DNA of 64,000 bases from NCBI GenBank assembly GCA_021826065.1, contig JAKADY010000002.1, forward strand, positions 1 through 64,000. The letters run 5' to 3'. The notes beneath the pieces were generated by a model. It worked only from the letters and a program-made list of their open reading frames with translations. It did no database searches and was not told where the DNA came from. This document shows, one piece after another, positions 51,979 through 59,128 of the stretch. Position 1 is the stretch's first letter. Each line of letters starts with the position of its first letter. Source of the stretch: Pseudomonadota bacterium. GTDB taxonomy: Bacteria > Pseudomonadota > Gammaproteobacteria > Burkholderiales > Thiobacillaceae. A program made the position numbers and the translations under genes.

Positions 51979-51996
51979 TTGTCATGAAACTGTAAT
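51979..51996 (+). promoter_or_regulatory. Pho box upstream of pstS
   Basis: TTGTCATGAAACTGTAAT closely matches the PhoB consensus of two CTGTCAT-like repeats spaced by four bases. It lies about 99 bp before pstS. A -10 site about 20 bp downstream (TAGGAT at 52006-52011) would suit a PhoB-activated promoter. Confidence 0.75.
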
Positions 51997-52094: not shown

Positions 52095-53081
52095 ATGTTC
52101 ATGAAAAAACTCGTCCTCGCGCTGGGCCTTGCCGCCAGCACGGCCTTCGCCGCCCAAGGCGCCCTGGCCCAGGCGGTCCGCGTCGATCCCAACCTGCCCA
52201 CCTACCAGCGCACCACCGGCGTCTCCGGCAACTTCACCAGCGTCGGTTCCGACACGCTGAACAACCTGATGACCCTGTGGGCCGAGGCCTTCAAGCGTCA
52301 GTACCCCAATGTCAACATCCAGATCCAGGGCGCCGGCTCCTCCACGGCGCCGCCGGCCCTGATCGAGGGCGCGGCCAACTTCGGTCCGATGAGCCGCCTG
52401 ATGAACGCCAAGGAGGTCGAGGCCTTCGAGAAGAAGTTCGGCTACAAACCCCACCCCATCCCGGTGGCCATCGATGCCCTGGCCGTCTACGTCAACAAGG
52501 ACAACCCCATCCAGGGCTTGTCCATCCCCCAGGTGGACGCCATCTTCTCGGCCACCCGCAAATGCGGCGGCAAAGAGGACATCACCAGCTGGGGTCAGGT
52601 CGGCATGACCGGCGAGTGGGCCAACCGCACCATCGCCCTGTACGGTCGTAACTCGGTGTCCGGCACCTATGGCTACTTCAAGGAGAAGGCCCTGTGCAAG
52701 GGTGACTTCAAGCGCAACGTTGCCGAGCAGCCCGGTTCTGCCTCGGTGGTGCAGAGCGTGACCGGCCAGCTCAACGCCATCGGCTACTCCGGCATCGGTT
52801 ACAAGACCTCCGGCGTGCGCGCCCTGCCGCTGGCGCACAAGGATGGCGCGCCGTTCGTCGAGCCCGATGCCAAGCATGCGATCGACGGCACCTACCCGCT
52901 GGCCCGCGTGCTGTATGTCTATGTGAACAAGCGTCCCAACCAACCGCTGCCGCCGCTTGAGCGTGAGTTCGTCAAACTGGTGCTGTCCAAACAAGGTCAG
53001 GAGGTGGTGGTGAAGGACGGCTTCGTGCCGCTGCCCGCCACCTTGGCGGCCAAGGCGCTCGCCGACCTGGGCATCAACTGA
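52095..53081 (+). CDS. pstS: Phosphate-binding protein PstS
   Basis: A 328-aa periplasmic binding protein with signal peptide cleaved near AQGALAQA. Phosphate-binding signatures: [57 protein letters not shown] and [14 protein letters not shown]. It delivers phosphate to PstCA. ATG 52095 follows AAAAGGAG; ATG 52101 is an alternative. Confidence 0.96.
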
Positions 53082-53099
53082 GTCTGAACCCCGCCAGAA

Positions 53100-53131
53100 G
53101 GCGCGCGCAGGCCGTCCGGCCCGCGCGCGCC
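53100..53131 (+). other. Long stem-loop after pstS
   Basis: GGCGCGCGCAGGCC and GGCCCGCGCGCGCC form a 14-bp stem with one mismatch and loop GTCC. It has no T-run and may stabilise the abundant pstS message or reduce read-through. Confidence 0.55.
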
Positions 53132-53154: not shown

Positions 53155-53778
53155 ATGCAGATGAAGCCCCAGCGTATGCAGCCCTTGGCACTGATCCTGG
53201 CAATGGGCCTGTTCAGCGGCTGCGCCACCAGCCAGACCGGGGAGCCCGCCAAGACGGAGGCAAAACCGGCGGCCCAGGCGACTGCAACGGCAGCGTCAGC
53301 CGCCCCCGCCAGTGCGCCGACCGAGTATTTCTTCATCGTCTATCACGAAAACGGCCGCATCTACCCTATTGCTGACGTCAAGAATTACCTCGGTTTCCTG
53401 GAGCACGACGAACTGACCTACACCCGCACCCGCATCGGTGAGGGGCCGGATGGTGCCACCCTGGTCTTCGGCATCGAGAAGAAAGAGGCCGACGAGCTCG
53501 GCAAGCCTTCCAAGGCCGAGCTGTTCTATGATGGCAAATATCAGCCCACCGGGTCGTTCTACGGCGAGGTGATGCTGGACGGCCGCTTCTACGTGTTCGG
53601 TACCTGGAAGGATTTCAAGGATTTCCTCGAACACAAGGAGGTGACCTACACCTTCACGGAGATCGGCGCCGGGCCCAAGGGCGAGACCGTGATCTATGCC
53701 CTCAACAAGGACACGGTCAAGGAGGGGCGGCCCGTCAAGCTGATCGAGGCCTTCAACAACCTCCGAAAATCCAAGTAA
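53155..53778 (+). CDS. Two-repeat lipoprotein within the pst cluster, unknown
   Basis: A 207-aa lipoprotein: signal ending LFSGC23, a Pro/Ala-rich linker (24-56), then two homologous units of about 55 aa. Unit A (57-111) reads YPIADVKNYLGFLEHDELTY then TRTRIGEGPDGATLVFGIEK. Unit B (134-188) reads YVFGTWKDFKDFLEHKEVTY then TFTEIGAGPKGETVIYALNK. I recognise no family. ATG 53155 follows GACGGAGATCC; the gene sits between pstS and pstC, with a terminator after it, so it is probably co-expressed with pstS under PhoB. It may help phosphate capture or anchor PstS at the envelope; that is inference. Confidence 0.8.
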   Translation: MQMKPQRMQPLALILAMGLFSGCATSQTGEPAKTEAKPAAQATATAASAAPASAPTEYFFIVYHENGRIYPIADVKNYLGFLEHDELTYTRTRIGEGPDGATLVFGIEKKEADELGKPSKAELFYDGKYQPTGSFYGEVMLDGRFYVFGTWKDFKDFLEHKEVTYTFTEIGAGPKGETVIYALNKDTVKEGRPVKLIEAFNNLRKSK

Positions 53779-53835
53779 GCCCGGGCCTGCGCCCGGGCCG
53801 GCAGGCGGGGGCTGAACCCAGGGTTCAGCCCTTTT
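53779..53835 (+). terminator. Tandem hairpins and T-run before pstC
   Basis: GCCCGGGCCTGCGCCCGGGC (53779-53798) is one hairpin. GGGCTGAAC and GTTCAGCCC (53809-53831) make a second, followed by TTTT. It should end most transcripts of pstS and the lipoprotein gene and limit pstCAB expression. Confidence 0.8.
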
Positions 53836-53922
53836 CGCATAGAATGCCCCGGCCACATTGTACCCTGTCCTCCCCGAGCGGTGGGTGAGGCGGGCGTTGG
53901 TCGGGCAAGCGTGTGGTGGGAC

Positions 53923-56199
53923 ATGGAAAAGATCGAAACCAACATCAGCAAGGTCGGCGGCTATACCGGGCGTCGTATGGCCAAGGACAAGCTGTTCAAG
54001 CACGTGATGACCTTTGGCGGTCTGAGCGTGATCATCGCCATCAGCGCCATCTTTTTCTATCTCGCCAGTGTCGTCCTGCCCATATTCATGCCGGCCAGCA
54101 TGGACGAGTTCAAACGGCTGCCCCTGCCGGCCGCGCAGAGTGGGGTGGTGCATTACGCGGCCGAGGAGCTGGCCGAGGTCGGCATGCGTTTCCAGGCCGA
54201 CGGCAAGGTGGATTTCTTCGATTTGCGCAACGGCAAGGCGCTCGGCGGCGACAGGATCACGCCGCCGGCGGGGGTGAAGATCACCACCTTCGCCGCGGGC
54301 GACCCCTCGCAGAAGGTCGTGGCCTACGGCATGGACAACGGACACATGCTGCTGGCCCGGCAGGCCTATCAGGTGAGTTTTCACCCCAATCCCAAGGACC
54401 CCACAAAGGATATCCGCAGCATCAAGCCGTCGATCGATCACCCCCTAGGTGAAGCGCCGATCGCGGTCGACCCCCAGGGGCGTGCCTTGAGGCTGCTCAC
54501 GGTACAAAGCTCCGACGAGGGCACGACGGCGATCGCCCTGACCGAGGACGGCCGGCTGGTGATGACCGCCATCACCAGCCGCACCAACCTCATCACCGGC
54601 GAGGTCAGCACCGAATCCGAGAGTGTGGAGCTGCCCCTGCCGCAAAACGGCGAGATCCGCCAGCTGCTGCTCGAGGTCAAGCAGCGCGACCTCTACGTGC
54701 TGCATGGCGACCGTCAGGTGTCGCACTACGACGTGATGAACAAGTCGAGTCCGCGTCTCGTGCAGACCGTCGAGGTGGCGCCAGCCGGCGAGCGGGTCAC
54801 GGCGGCGACCCTGTTGAGCGGCGGCTACTCCCTCATCTTGGGTACCGACAAAGGCAATCTCACGCAATGGTTCCAGGTGCGGGACAAGGACAACAACAAC
54901 CACCTCACGCGGATACGCGACTTCAAGCCAATGCGGCATGCCGTCACGGTCATCGCCCCGGAACACTTCCGCAAGGGCTTCATCGTCGGCGATGCCAAGG
55001 GCGATGTGGGGCTTTACTACGCCACCTCGCGCCGGCATCTGCTCACCCGCTCCAGCGGCAGCGAGCCGGTCCAGGTGCTCGCCCTGGCGCCGCGCGCCAA
55101 CGCCGCGCTGGTACAGAACACTGATGGCGCTCTGCAGACGGCCAGCATCAAGAACGATTACCCCGAGGTGTCTTTCTACGCGACCTGGCAAAAGGTCTGG
55201 TACGAGAGCTACCAGGAACCGGAATACGTCTGGCAATCGTCCGCCGCCACCTCCGACTTCGAGCCCAAGTTCAGCGTCGCCCCGCTGACCTTCGGCACCC
55301 TCAAGGCCGCCTTCTACGCGATGCTGGTGGCCATCCCCCTGGCGGTGATGGGGGCCATCTTCGCCGCCTACTTCATGTCGCCGCGCATGCGCAGCGTGGT
55401 CAAGCCCTCCATCGAGATCATGGAGGCGCTGCCCACCGTGATCCTCGGCTTCCTCGCCGGTCTGTGGCTCGCGCCCTTCGTCGACAACAACCTGGCCGGC
55501 ACCCTGTTGGCGATCTTCCTGTTGCCTTTCAGCTTCCTGCTGAGCGCCTACATCTGGCACCGCCTGCCGGTGAGCTTCACGCAGCGCGTCGGTCCGGGCT
55601 GGGAGGCGGCCTTGCTGATACTGCCCATCATCCTCACCATCTGGCTGGCCATCGAGCTGGGCCATACCATCGAGGCCGCCTTCTTCGGCGGCAACATGCC
55701 ACACTGGGTGACCAACGAGCTCGGCTGGACCTATGAGCAGCGCAACTCCTTGGTGGTGGGAATCGCCATGGGCTTTGCCGTCATCCCCAACATCTTCTCC
55801 ATCGCCGAGGACGCCGTCTTCAGCGTGCCGAAGCACCTGACCTCGGGCTCCCTGGCGCTGGGCGCCACACCCTGGCAGACCCTGTGGAACGTGGTCCTGC
55901 CCACCGCCAGCCCCGGCATCTTCTCCGCCATCATGGTCGGACTGGGCCGCGCCGTGGGCGAGACCATGATCGTGCTGATGGCCACCGGCAACACCGCGGT
56001 GATGGACCTGTCCATCTTCACCGGTTTCCGGACCCTTTCCGCCAACATCGGTGTGGAGATGCCGGAGGCGGCGGTGGGGACCACGCACTATCGCCTGCTG
56101 TTCTTCTCCGCCCTAGTCCTGTTCGCCTTCACCTTCCTGGTGAACACCGCTGCCGAGCTGGTGCGGCAGCGCCTGCGGGAAAAATACAGCACCCTGTGA
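53923..56199 (+). CDS. pstC: Phosphate ABC transporter permease PstC, long form
   Basis: A 758-aa permease; the usual E. coli-type PstC has about 320. A first helix (LSVIIAISAIFFYLASVVLP) is followed by about 340 residues of periplasmic WD40-like or propeller-like repeats (VSHYDVMNKSSPRLVQ, LILGTDKGNLTQWFQV). The C-terminal 270 residues form the binding-protein-dependent permease domain with the EAA loop ALGATPWQTLWNVVLPTASP. ATG 53923 (MEKIETNIS) is chosen. Long PstC forms are known in other gammaproteobacteria. It pairs with the long PstA. Confidence 0.93.
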   Translation: MEKIETNISKVGGYTGRRMAKDKLFKHVMTFGGLSVIIAISAIFFYLASVVLPIFMPASMDEFKRLPLPAAQSGVVHYAAEELAEVGMRFQADGKVDFFDLRNGKALGGDRITPPAGVKITTFAAGDPSQKVVAYGMDNGHMLLARQAYQVSFHPNPKDPTKDIRSIKPSIDHPLGEAPIAVDPQGRALRLLTVQSSDEGTTAIALTEDGRLVMTAITSRTNLITGEVSTESESVELPLPQNGEIRQLLLEVKQRDLYVLHGDRQVSHYDVMNKSSPRLVQTVEVAPAGERVTAATLLSGGYSLILGTDKGNLTQWFQVRDKDNNNHLTRIRDFKPMRHAVTVIAPEHFRKGFIVGDAKGDVGLYYATSRRHLLTRSSGSEPVQVLALAPRANAALVQNTDGALQTASIKNDYPEVSFYATWQKVWYESYQEPEYVWQSSAATSDFEPKFSVAPLTFGTLKAAFYAMLVAIPLAVMGAIFAAYFMSPRMRSVVKPSIEIMEALPTVILGFLAGLWLAPFVDNNLAGTLLAIFLLPFSFLLSAYIWHRLPVSFTQRVGPGWEAALLILPIILTIWLAIELGHTIEAAFFGGNMPHWVTNELGWTYEQRNSLVVGIAMGFAVIPNIFSIAEDAVFSVPKHLTSGSLALGATPWQTLWNVVLPTASPGIFSAIMVGLGRAVGETMIVLMATGNTAVMDLSIFTGFRTLSANIGVEMPEAAVGTTHYRLLFFSALVLFAFTFLVNTAAELVRQRLREKYSTL

Positions 56200-56210
56200 G
56201 GATCTGACCC

Positions 56211-57866
56211 ATGCGCGACTGGTTTAAGGGCGGCGAGCCCTGGATTTGGATGACCGCGGGGGCGGTGGCCCTGTCGCTGGTGATGGTCTATGCCGTGGTA
56301 TGGCTCACCGCCGCGCGCGGGCTGGTGCACTGGTGGCCGAAACCCGTGGTGGAGACGACCTACAAGGAGGCCGACGGTCGCGTCGTCCGCTTGATCGGTG
56401 AGGTGCGTGAGCGCGAGGAGGTGGCCGTCGTGCGCCTGCGCGAACAGGGCTACAACATCGACACCCAAGACGCCTACACCCATCGTTACCTGTTCAAGCT
56501 CGGCAACAAGGACATCACCGGTGTCGATTTCAAGTGGTTCCCGGCGCCCAATCTCGGCCAGTTCACCTATCCGCGCGATCTCATCACCATCGAGCGGCGC
56601 GAGTGGGGCAACTTCTATGGCCACCTCAAGGCGGTGAAGCAGGAGGGGCAGGTCGTGGCCGAGGGCGATGCGGCATGGGAGGAGGCGCAAAAGCGGCTCG
56701 AGCGCGGCACTGCCCTGTTCCGCGAGGCCCTGCGCCTGGAAAAGGTCGACATCGGTCGCATCAACTACCAGCTTGAGCGGCTGCGGCTACGTGAACGAAA
56801 ACTGATGTTGCAGGGGCGGCTTACGGAGGCGGACAAGGCCGAATTCGCCCGCCAGCGTGACAAGCTGAACGCCGATTACGGTGTCCTGCAGGAAAGGCTG
56901 GACCGGGTCCGACACGATCTGGAGCGCGACAGCCTGATGGTCGAGACCATGGAAGGGCAGGTGGTGGAGATCCCCTTCGCCAAGATCGCCGACCTGTACA
57001 TGCCCAATGCGATGAACACCCTGCAGAAGGCGGGTTTCTATGCCCGCAAATTCTGGGAGTTCATCAGCGACGACCCGCGCGAGGCCAACACCGAGGGCGG
57101 CATCTTCCCGGCCATCTTCGGCACCGTGATGATGGTGCTGTTGATGTCGGTCATGGTGACCCCGCTGGGCATCATGGCGGCGGTCTATATGCGCGAATAC
57201 GCCAAACAAGGGCCGCTCATCCGCACCATCCGCATCTCGGTGAACAACCTGGCCGGCGTGCCCTCCATCGTCTACGGCGTGTTCGGCCTGGGCTTCTTCG
57301 TCTACGTGCTGGGGGGCAGCATCGACGAGCTGTTCTTCCCGGAGGCCCTGCCCGCCCCCACCTTCGGCAGCCCCGGCATCCTCTGGGCGTCGCTCACCCT
57401 GGCCATCCTCACCCTGCCGGTGGTCATCGTCGCCACCGAGGAGGGCCTGTCGCGCGTGCCACGCTCCGTGCGCGAGGGCAGCCTCGCCCTGGGGGCGACC
57501 AAGGCCGAGACGCTCTGGCGCATCGTTTTGCCCATGGCCAGCCCGGCCATGATGACCGGCCTGATCCTGGCCGTGGCCCGTGCCGCCGGCGAGGTGGCCC
57601 CGCTGATGCTGGTGGGTGTGGTCAAGCTCGCGCCGAGCCTGCCGGTGGACGGCAACTTCCCCTTCATCCACCTGGAACGCAAGTTCATGCACCTGGGCTT
57701 CCACATCTACGACGTCGGCTTCCAGAGCCCCAACGTCGAGGCCGCCCGCCCGCTGGTCTATGCCACGGCCCTGCTGCTGGTCATCATCATCGTCGTGCTG
57801 AACCTGGCCGCCATCAGCATGCGCAACCACCTGCGCGAGAAGATGCGCGGCCTCGAAGGCGTCTGA
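56211..57866 (+). CDS. pstA: Phosphate ABC transporter permease PstA, long form
   Basis: A 551-aa permease, about 250 residues longer than E. coli PstA. One N-terminal helix is followed by a DUF3333-like extracytoplasmic region with a coiled coil (about residues 160-250: [20 protein letters not shown] then [19 protein letters not shown]). The permease domain contains [20 protein letters not shown]. It probably forms the channel with PstC. Confidence 0.94.
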
Positions 57867-57900: not shown

Positions 57901-58725
57901 ATGAGCGACGCGCCCAAGTCCCACGCCATCAACCTCGGCGACATCACCCGCACCCCCATGGCCCACACCAGCGAGGTGGCCATCGAGGTGCAGAACCTGG
58001 ACCTGTACTACGGCAACGCCCAGGCGCTGAAGGGGATCAACATGAAGATCCCCAAGAAGCGGGTCACCGCCTTCATCGGCCCCAGCGGCTGCGGCAAGTC
58101 CACCCTGCTGCGCTGCTTCAACCGCATGAACGATCTGGTCGACAACTGCCGTGTCGAGGGCAAGATCCTCATGGATGGCAAGAACATCTACGACCGCGAC
58201 GTCAACGTCGCCCTCCTGCGCCGGCGGGTCGGGATGGTGTTCCAGAAGCCCAATCCCTTTCCCAAGTCGATCTACGAGAACGTGGCCTATGGGCTGCGCA
58301 TCATGGGGATCAACGACAAGAAGACCCTGGACACGACGGTGGAGAAGGCCCTGCGCGGCGCCGCCCTGTGGGACGAGGTGAAGGACCGGCTGCAGGACAG
58401 CGGCATGAGCCTGTCCGGTGGCCAGCAGCAACGCCTGGTCATCGCCCGCGCCGTGGCCCTCGAGCCCGATGTGCTGCTGCTCGACGAGCCGGCCTCGGCG
58501 CTCGACCCGATCTCCACCGCCAAGCTGGAGGAGCTGATCGACGAGCTCAAGGCCAACTACACCATCGTCATCGTCACCCACAACATGCAGCAGGCGGCGC
58601 GGGTGTCCGACTACACCGCCTTCATGTACCTGGGCGAGCTGATCGAGTTCGGCCCGACCGACGAGCTCTTCGTCAAGCCCAAGAACAAGCAGACGGAAGA
58701 CTACATCACCGGCCGCTTCGGCTAG
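57901..58725 (+). CDS. pstB: Phosphate ABC transporter ATP-binding protein
   Basis: A 274-aa ABC ATPase with Walker [10 protein letters not shown], signature LSGGQQQR and Walker [13 protein letters not shown]. It powers phosphate import. ATG 57901 follows AAGGAAAAACCCT. phoU, usually next to pstB, is absent from the window. Confidence 0.97.
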
Positions 58726-58879: not shown

Positions 58880-59128
58880 ATGGCCAATGCCGTCAAAGCC
58901 GTCGCAAAATTCGTCCGCAAGAACAAGGACGACGAGAGCGCCGTCATCTTGCGTGAACTGTGCGAGGCGCTCGAGACCGGCCAGCCCTTCGTGCTGACCC
59001 GGCTCTACGACATCCCGCCCAAGGCCTACGAGCTGGCCATCAAGCTGCTGACCGACTGGCGCTTCGACCGGCACCTGACCGAGCGGCGCTTCGCCAAATA
59101 CTTCGACCAGGACCAGGAAGAGGGCTGA
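58880..59128 (+). CDS. Small conserved-looking protein after pstB, unknown
   Basis: An 82-aa soluble, charged protein (MANAVKAVAKFVRKNKDDES, then RELCEALETGQPFVLTRLYD and LAIKLLTDWRFDRHLTERRF). The ATG lies nine bases after AGGAG; the frame upstream is not protein-like. No family recognised. Its position after pst and a possible Pho box suggest a phosphate-linked role, which is inference. Confidence 0.65.
   Translation: MANAVKAVAKFVRKNKDDESAVILRELCEALETGQPFVLTRLYDIPPKAYELAIKLLTDWRFDRHLTERRFAKYFDQDQEEG

Follow-up and report, generated by a model that had tools for sequence, protein, structure and literature searches.

The window, i.e. the whole 64,000-nucleotide stretch of DNA analysed here, encodes a lipoprotein between pstS and pstC, which we regard as a probable accessory of a subtype of the phosphate transporter Pst, namely the one whose PstC carries a large insertion; the protein would belong to the Pho regulon and would reach into the periplasm from an anchor that probably lies in the outer membrane. 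The Pst/Pho system is the textbook system for phosphate uptake and sensing, and the list of its components is commonly regarded as complete. A lipoprotein that is conserved, under Pho control and confined to a single Pst subtype would extend this list, and it would be a candidate and directly testable partner for long PstC proteins, whose large insertion on the periplasmic side is unexplained. Judged from its sequence and that of its homologs, the lipoprotein, which is found in some sulfur- and iron-oxidizing bacteria and their relatives, seems to be a component of phosphate scavenging in bacteria that has escaped notice. No Pst system is known to us, or described in the literature searched, that includes a separate outer-membrane-type lipoprotein, and a search of mainly open-access journal papers retrieved no description of such a gene between pstS and pstC.

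The pst cluster of the window

The genes are arranged in the order pstS-lipoprotein gene-pstC-pstA-pstB and are flanked by glmM and tpiA (Table 1). The lipoprotein gene starts 73 nt past pstS and ends 144 nt before the ATG of pstC at position 53923. It is embedded in an operon for a PstSCAB transporter (TIGR02136, TIGR02138, TIGR00974, TIGR00972) and lies behind the same Pho box; however, the cluster of the window differs from such operons in that it adds an outer-membrane-type lipoprotein and a PstC with a periplasmic insertion of ~400 residues. PstC and PstA (53923-57866) are both far longer than the E. coli types, and the periplasmic insertion of the long PstC appears to be little discussed in the literature searched.

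Table 1. Features of the pst cluster and of the lipoprotein gene in the window.
Feature	Position	Strand	Evidence
Pho box upstream of pstS	51979..51996	+	PWM score 17.9 (approximate), dinucleotide-shuffle p = 0.001
pstS, phosphate-binding protein, TIGR02136 type	52095..53081	+	NCBIfam TIGR02136 280 bits, Pfam PBP_like_2
Strong GC hairpin without T tract, pstS-lipoprotein gap	53099..53131 (approximate)	+	-34.1 kcal/mol, z -4.1
Two-unit lipoprotein gene, undescribed family	53155..53778	+	ORF, homologs, AlphaFold2
Unit 1, residues 56-113, strand-strand-helix-strand-strand	53320..53493	+	Internal alignment, secondary structure
Unit 2, residues 131-190, element order as in unit 1, followed by C-terminal helices	53545..53724	+	Internal alignment, secondary structure
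Terminator-like hairpin, lipoprotein gene-pstC gap	53809..53836	+	
Long pstC, ~758 aa, ~400-residue periplasmic insertion	53923..56199	+	TIGR02138; weak WDR-type beta-propeller profile matches
pstA, 551 aa, also extended	56211..57866	+	TIGR00974 257 bits
pstB	57901..58725	+	TIGR00972 421 bits

Architecture and family identity of the lipoprotein

The ORF encodes 207 aa and is a real gene, whose homologs in other genera are 53-69% identical; its GC3 of 0.83 is close to the values of the neighbouring genes (0.89-0.93). The protein starts with a signal peptide and the lipobox LFSG-C23, followed by an Ala/Pro-rich linker (residues ~24-55) and a globular domain (residues ~56-207). The lipobox cysteine, and with it the hallmark of a type II signal peptide, is kept in all homologs of a second collection of genome contigs but one. 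This exception (L088:3830-4423, +) carries the label of a Chlorobiaceae MAG and lies in a pst cassette of betaproteobacterial type, which may be due to misbinning or transfer.

The two units of the domain are 39% identical (MAFFT); in a local BLOSUM62 alignment they score 111, whereas none of 2000 shuffles exceeded 52, and of 44 core residues 20 are identical. In each unit, the part that is invariant throughout the family reads approximately GRxYxF...E...T..[IV]GxGPxGxT[VIL]. The unit is modular and occurs in one to three copies, since the relative L143 possesses a single unit and L111 possesses three. The former (L143:1414-1695, +) is a 93-aa lipoprotein encoded next to a uvrB-like gene in a genome with long PstC. 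In the latter (L111:6737-7441, -), which stems from a gammaproteobacterium and is encoded between pstB and phoU, the three tandem units are near-identical, which points to a recent repeat expansion. The first-pass annotation had described the protein as a two-repeat lipoprotein between pstS and pstC, and the ORF, the lipobox, the internal alignment and the confirmed neighbours bear this out. The pattern FLEH(D/K)E(L/V)TYT, which had been singled out as distinctive, turned out to be near-specific to the window sequence and is not a signature of the family, whose conserved core is GRxY...IGxGPxGxT.

The same annotation had called the protein undescribed, and database searches agree: with the window protein and divergent homologs as queries, no sequence match above the sub-threshold or low-complexity level was obtained in Pfam, NCBIfam, PHROG or the PDB. 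Homology to PstS, PstC, PstA, PstB or PhoU, as expected for a Pst core component, was not detected above the Pfam/NCBIfam cut-off. A tblastn search of plasmids and phages with the lipoprotein gave no match. Scattered PHROG and Pfam matches of L111 were rejected as a product of its near-identical repeats. A match to the YHS domain (PF04945), which was produced only by the homolog L102 and covers the GR-hairpin-helix part, stays below the cut-off (E 0.022; 15.2 bits versus 30.3 bits). One GRxY-containing stretch resembles tachylectin-type propeller lectins (1tl2, 3kif) in sub-threshold profile matches (E 0.015-0.06); however, the lipoprotein is predicted to consist of strand-strand-helix-strand-strand units and not of propeller blades. 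AlphaFold2 models the mature domain with a mean pLDDT of 93 and a pTM of 0.88. Structure searches of the PDB and of viral libraries returned nothing significant; the best PDB matches were weak with both Foldseek (E 0.056, prob 0.07) and VIA (Z 3.5, rmsd 4.8, 82 residues aligned). The modelled domain possibly adopts a new fold, a missing PDB match being no proof of this.

Transcript layout and linkage to pst genes

A Pho box (TTGTCATGAAACTGTAAT) begins 116 nt before the ATG of pstS; the position weight matrix (PWM) used here comprises nine textbook E. coli-type sites, and its scores are approximate. The GC hairpin in the gap between pstS and the lipoprotein gene is a probable mRNA-stabilizing stem. 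A T-tailed hairpin was found in this gap neither in the window nor in 26 of the 27 loci of the second collection. In the gap between the lipoprotein gene and pstC, the segment 53779-53850 folds at -44.6 kcal/mol and contains a terminator-like hairpin (GGGCTGAACCC-AGG-GTTCAGCCC-TTTT, also given as GGGCTGAACC/GGTTCAGCCC then TTTT), which is missing from a standard terminator scan because the scan demands five T. Equivalents of this T-tailed hairpin are present in 24 of 27 loci (18 of them strong), as compared to one of 27 for the gap behind pstS; this gap is shorter, which somewhat favours the gap before pstC in the comparison. The layout fits an abundant message that covers pstS and the lipoprotein gene and mostly ends before pstC. 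With the Pho box in front of pstS and no terminator behind it, the sequence lends support to the earlier proposals of a Pho-controlled message shared with pstS and of a terminator that separates the gene from pstC.

Within the order of the window, 16 homologs from whole genomes were aligned, all of which are encoded directly upstream of pstC, and pstS is located upstream of them wherever that side was read. In the second collection, which partly overlaps with the whole-genome set (G044, G056 and G057 are the same genomes), a single-sequence query found no homolog and an alignment query found the 27 loci, labelled mostly Thiobacillus, Hydrogenophilaceae, Gallionellaceae and Rhodocyclaceae. The order pstS-gene-pstC is seen in 26 of them, some of which begin or stop at a contig edge. 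The genes flanking the pst cassette vary by genome (glmM/tpiA in some, others not), which indicates that conservation extends to the cassette but not to its surroundings. Weak order-level matches (E ~0.001-0.01), which were obtained with a profile containing the signal peptide, extend over no more than the signal peptide and Ala linker and were not counted as homologs.

The picture changes in a sample of the class. Among the 11 homologs from outside the window, seven are encoded away from pst genes, three within pst clusters and one on a contig-end fragment. The order in L108 is again pstS-gene-pstC, and in L104 a gene for a PhoX-family phosphatase is followed by the lipoprotein gene and then by pstS. 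Genetic linkage as expected for a Pst accessory hence holds for all order-level homologs, but for only 3 of 11 class-level homologs from outside the window. The first-pass annotation had proposed a survey of this linkage, and had held that homologs found mostly away from pst genes would speak against its idea: linkage is near-absolute in the window's order (16/16; 26/27), whereas most homologs of the wider class (7/11) are indeed orphans. The meaning of this finding is, however, reversed by the Pho boxes of the orphans and by their co-occurrence with long PstC.

When 150-nt upstream regions were scanned, all seven orphan genes had Pho-box-like sites, which start 67-104 nt 5' of the gene, for instance CTGTCATCAAGCTGTTAT (G677), CTGTCATATTTCTGCAAT (G717) and TTGTCATATTAATGACAT (G611). 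Shuffle p values range from 0.001 to 0.024 for six of the seven, and the site of G819 is weak (p 0.087); combined, the seven give a Fisher p of 1.9e-9, and their upstream regions outscore those of 64 other genes from the same loci (p 1.7e-6), related genomes being treated as independent in these values. As a match to the consensus, a PhoB box is thus present in the controlling promoter of pstS in the window and of six of seven orphans, from which we infer Pho-dependent expression of the lipoprotein.

Two other explanations have to be weighed at this point. The cassette is patchy in its distribution and located at different chromosomal places, as would be expected if the lipoprotein gene were a passenger on a horizontally moving pst cassette and had no part in phosphate physiology. 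Since unlinked homologs have their own Pho boxes and the gene is kept over wide distances, we consider this highly improbable. The predominance of orphans with Pho boxes at class level would also suit an envelope lipoprotein of the Pho regulon that serves phosphate starvation outside Pst, for instance as a stabilizer or activator of a phosphatase in the periplasm or on the surface, as the gene order in L104 might suggest, or as a means of adapting the outer membrane. A precedent is ElpS of Caulobacter crescentus, an outer-membrane lipoprotein, which is made upon phosphate starvation and is associated with alkaline phosphatase activity (PMC2996285). Compared by description only, ElpS differs from the lipoprotein in that its gene neighbours a cluster for type II secretion and the protein is released from the surface (PMC2996285). 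A role outside Pst is unlikely in our view, given the strict restriction to genomes with long PstC and the order pstS-gene-pstC, which is fixed in ~26 loci.

Co-occurrence with long PstC

In a sample of 100 genomes of the family, long PstC is encoded in 13 genomes, and all 13 carry the lipoprotein gene; three congeners of the window genome possess neither. Exactly four of 399 genomes of the order carry the gene, and these are the ones with a close long PstC, while two genomes with a distant long PstC (25% identity) both lack it. At class level (369 genomes), the gene was found in 12 genomes, which include the window genome and G731, a weak first match confirmed by reading the locus. Long PstC is present in 12/12 of these versus a background of 119/369 (hypergeometric P 8.5e-7, an indicative value that treats related genomes as independent). 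A broader profile matched none of 80 genomes without long PstC and gave one single-unit relative in 80 genomes with it. Ordinary PstC is encoded in 35 of 70 checked genomes without long PstC; the association is therefore not simply one with having Pst. Taken together, the orphans with their own Pho boxes and the presence of long PstC in all gene-bearing genomes of the class argue for a role in phosphate physiology.

The lipoprotein gene is present in only ~10% of the class genomes with long PstC, which counts against an accessory of Pst and means that the lipoprotein is dispensable for transport. No replacement lipoprotein was found in the pstS-pstC gap of the examined long-PstC genomes without the gene. 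The divergence of the lipoprotein tracks that of the PstC insertion with an r of 0.86, a correlation that shared ancestry alone would give.

Co-occurrence and co-divergence with the insertion could also be read as signs of a periplasmic regulator, which acts on Pst-PhoR-PhoB signalling via PstC and reports the status of the outer membrane or of phosphate rather than aiding transport; the position of the three-unit relative between pstB and phoU would fit such a function. However, the lipoprotein is apparently made on the pstS message and not with the signalling subunits, and no sensor-like feature was identified in it, which makes a regulator improbable.

Predicted membrane location and proposed role

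According to the Lol rule of E. coli, a residue other than Asp at position +2 predicts localization of a lipoprotein in the outer membrane. In the homologs listed, the lipidated cysteine is always followed by A, T or V (mostly A or T) and never by Asp; by this sequence criterion of E. coli, the lipoprotein is probably located in the outer membrane. If it holds PstS near a membrane, as had been proposed, this would mean the outer and not the inner membrane.

As an accessory of Pst, the lipoprotein might act as follows. Under phosphate limitation, PhoB would drive a short and abundant message of pstS and the lipoprotein gene, which mostly stops before pstC, and the lipoprotein would thereby be made together with PstS and not with the membrane channel. 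After lipidation, the two-unit domain would extend into the periplasm on its Ala/Pro-rich tether. There it would most likely dock either PstS or the insertion in PstC, or might itself hold phosphate, conceivably via the paired Arg/Gly-rich (IGxGPxGxT) loops. Either activity could raise the efficiency of capture at low phosphate. It is tempting to speculate further that a new family, whose two-fold repeat possibly represents a new fold, acts as a relay of phosphate or PstS that is tethered to the outer membrane and, as a hitherto unrecognized component, connects this membrane with the long-PstC transporters of Proteobacteria; this wider reading is tentative and somewhat doubtful.

Additional observations

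A homolog in Desulfuromonas (L089:3866-4417, +) is 35% identical in the domain and encoded outside pst; it follows genes for a phosphorylase and a phosphomannomutase/phosphoglucomutase and is preceded by a candidate Pho box (p 0.006). In the window, a small conserved ORF (58880-59128, +) lies between pstB and tpiA. It encodes 82 aa from an internal ATG (MANAVKAVAKFVRKN...), is without a Pfam match and has 51-56% identical copies at the same place in two relatives.
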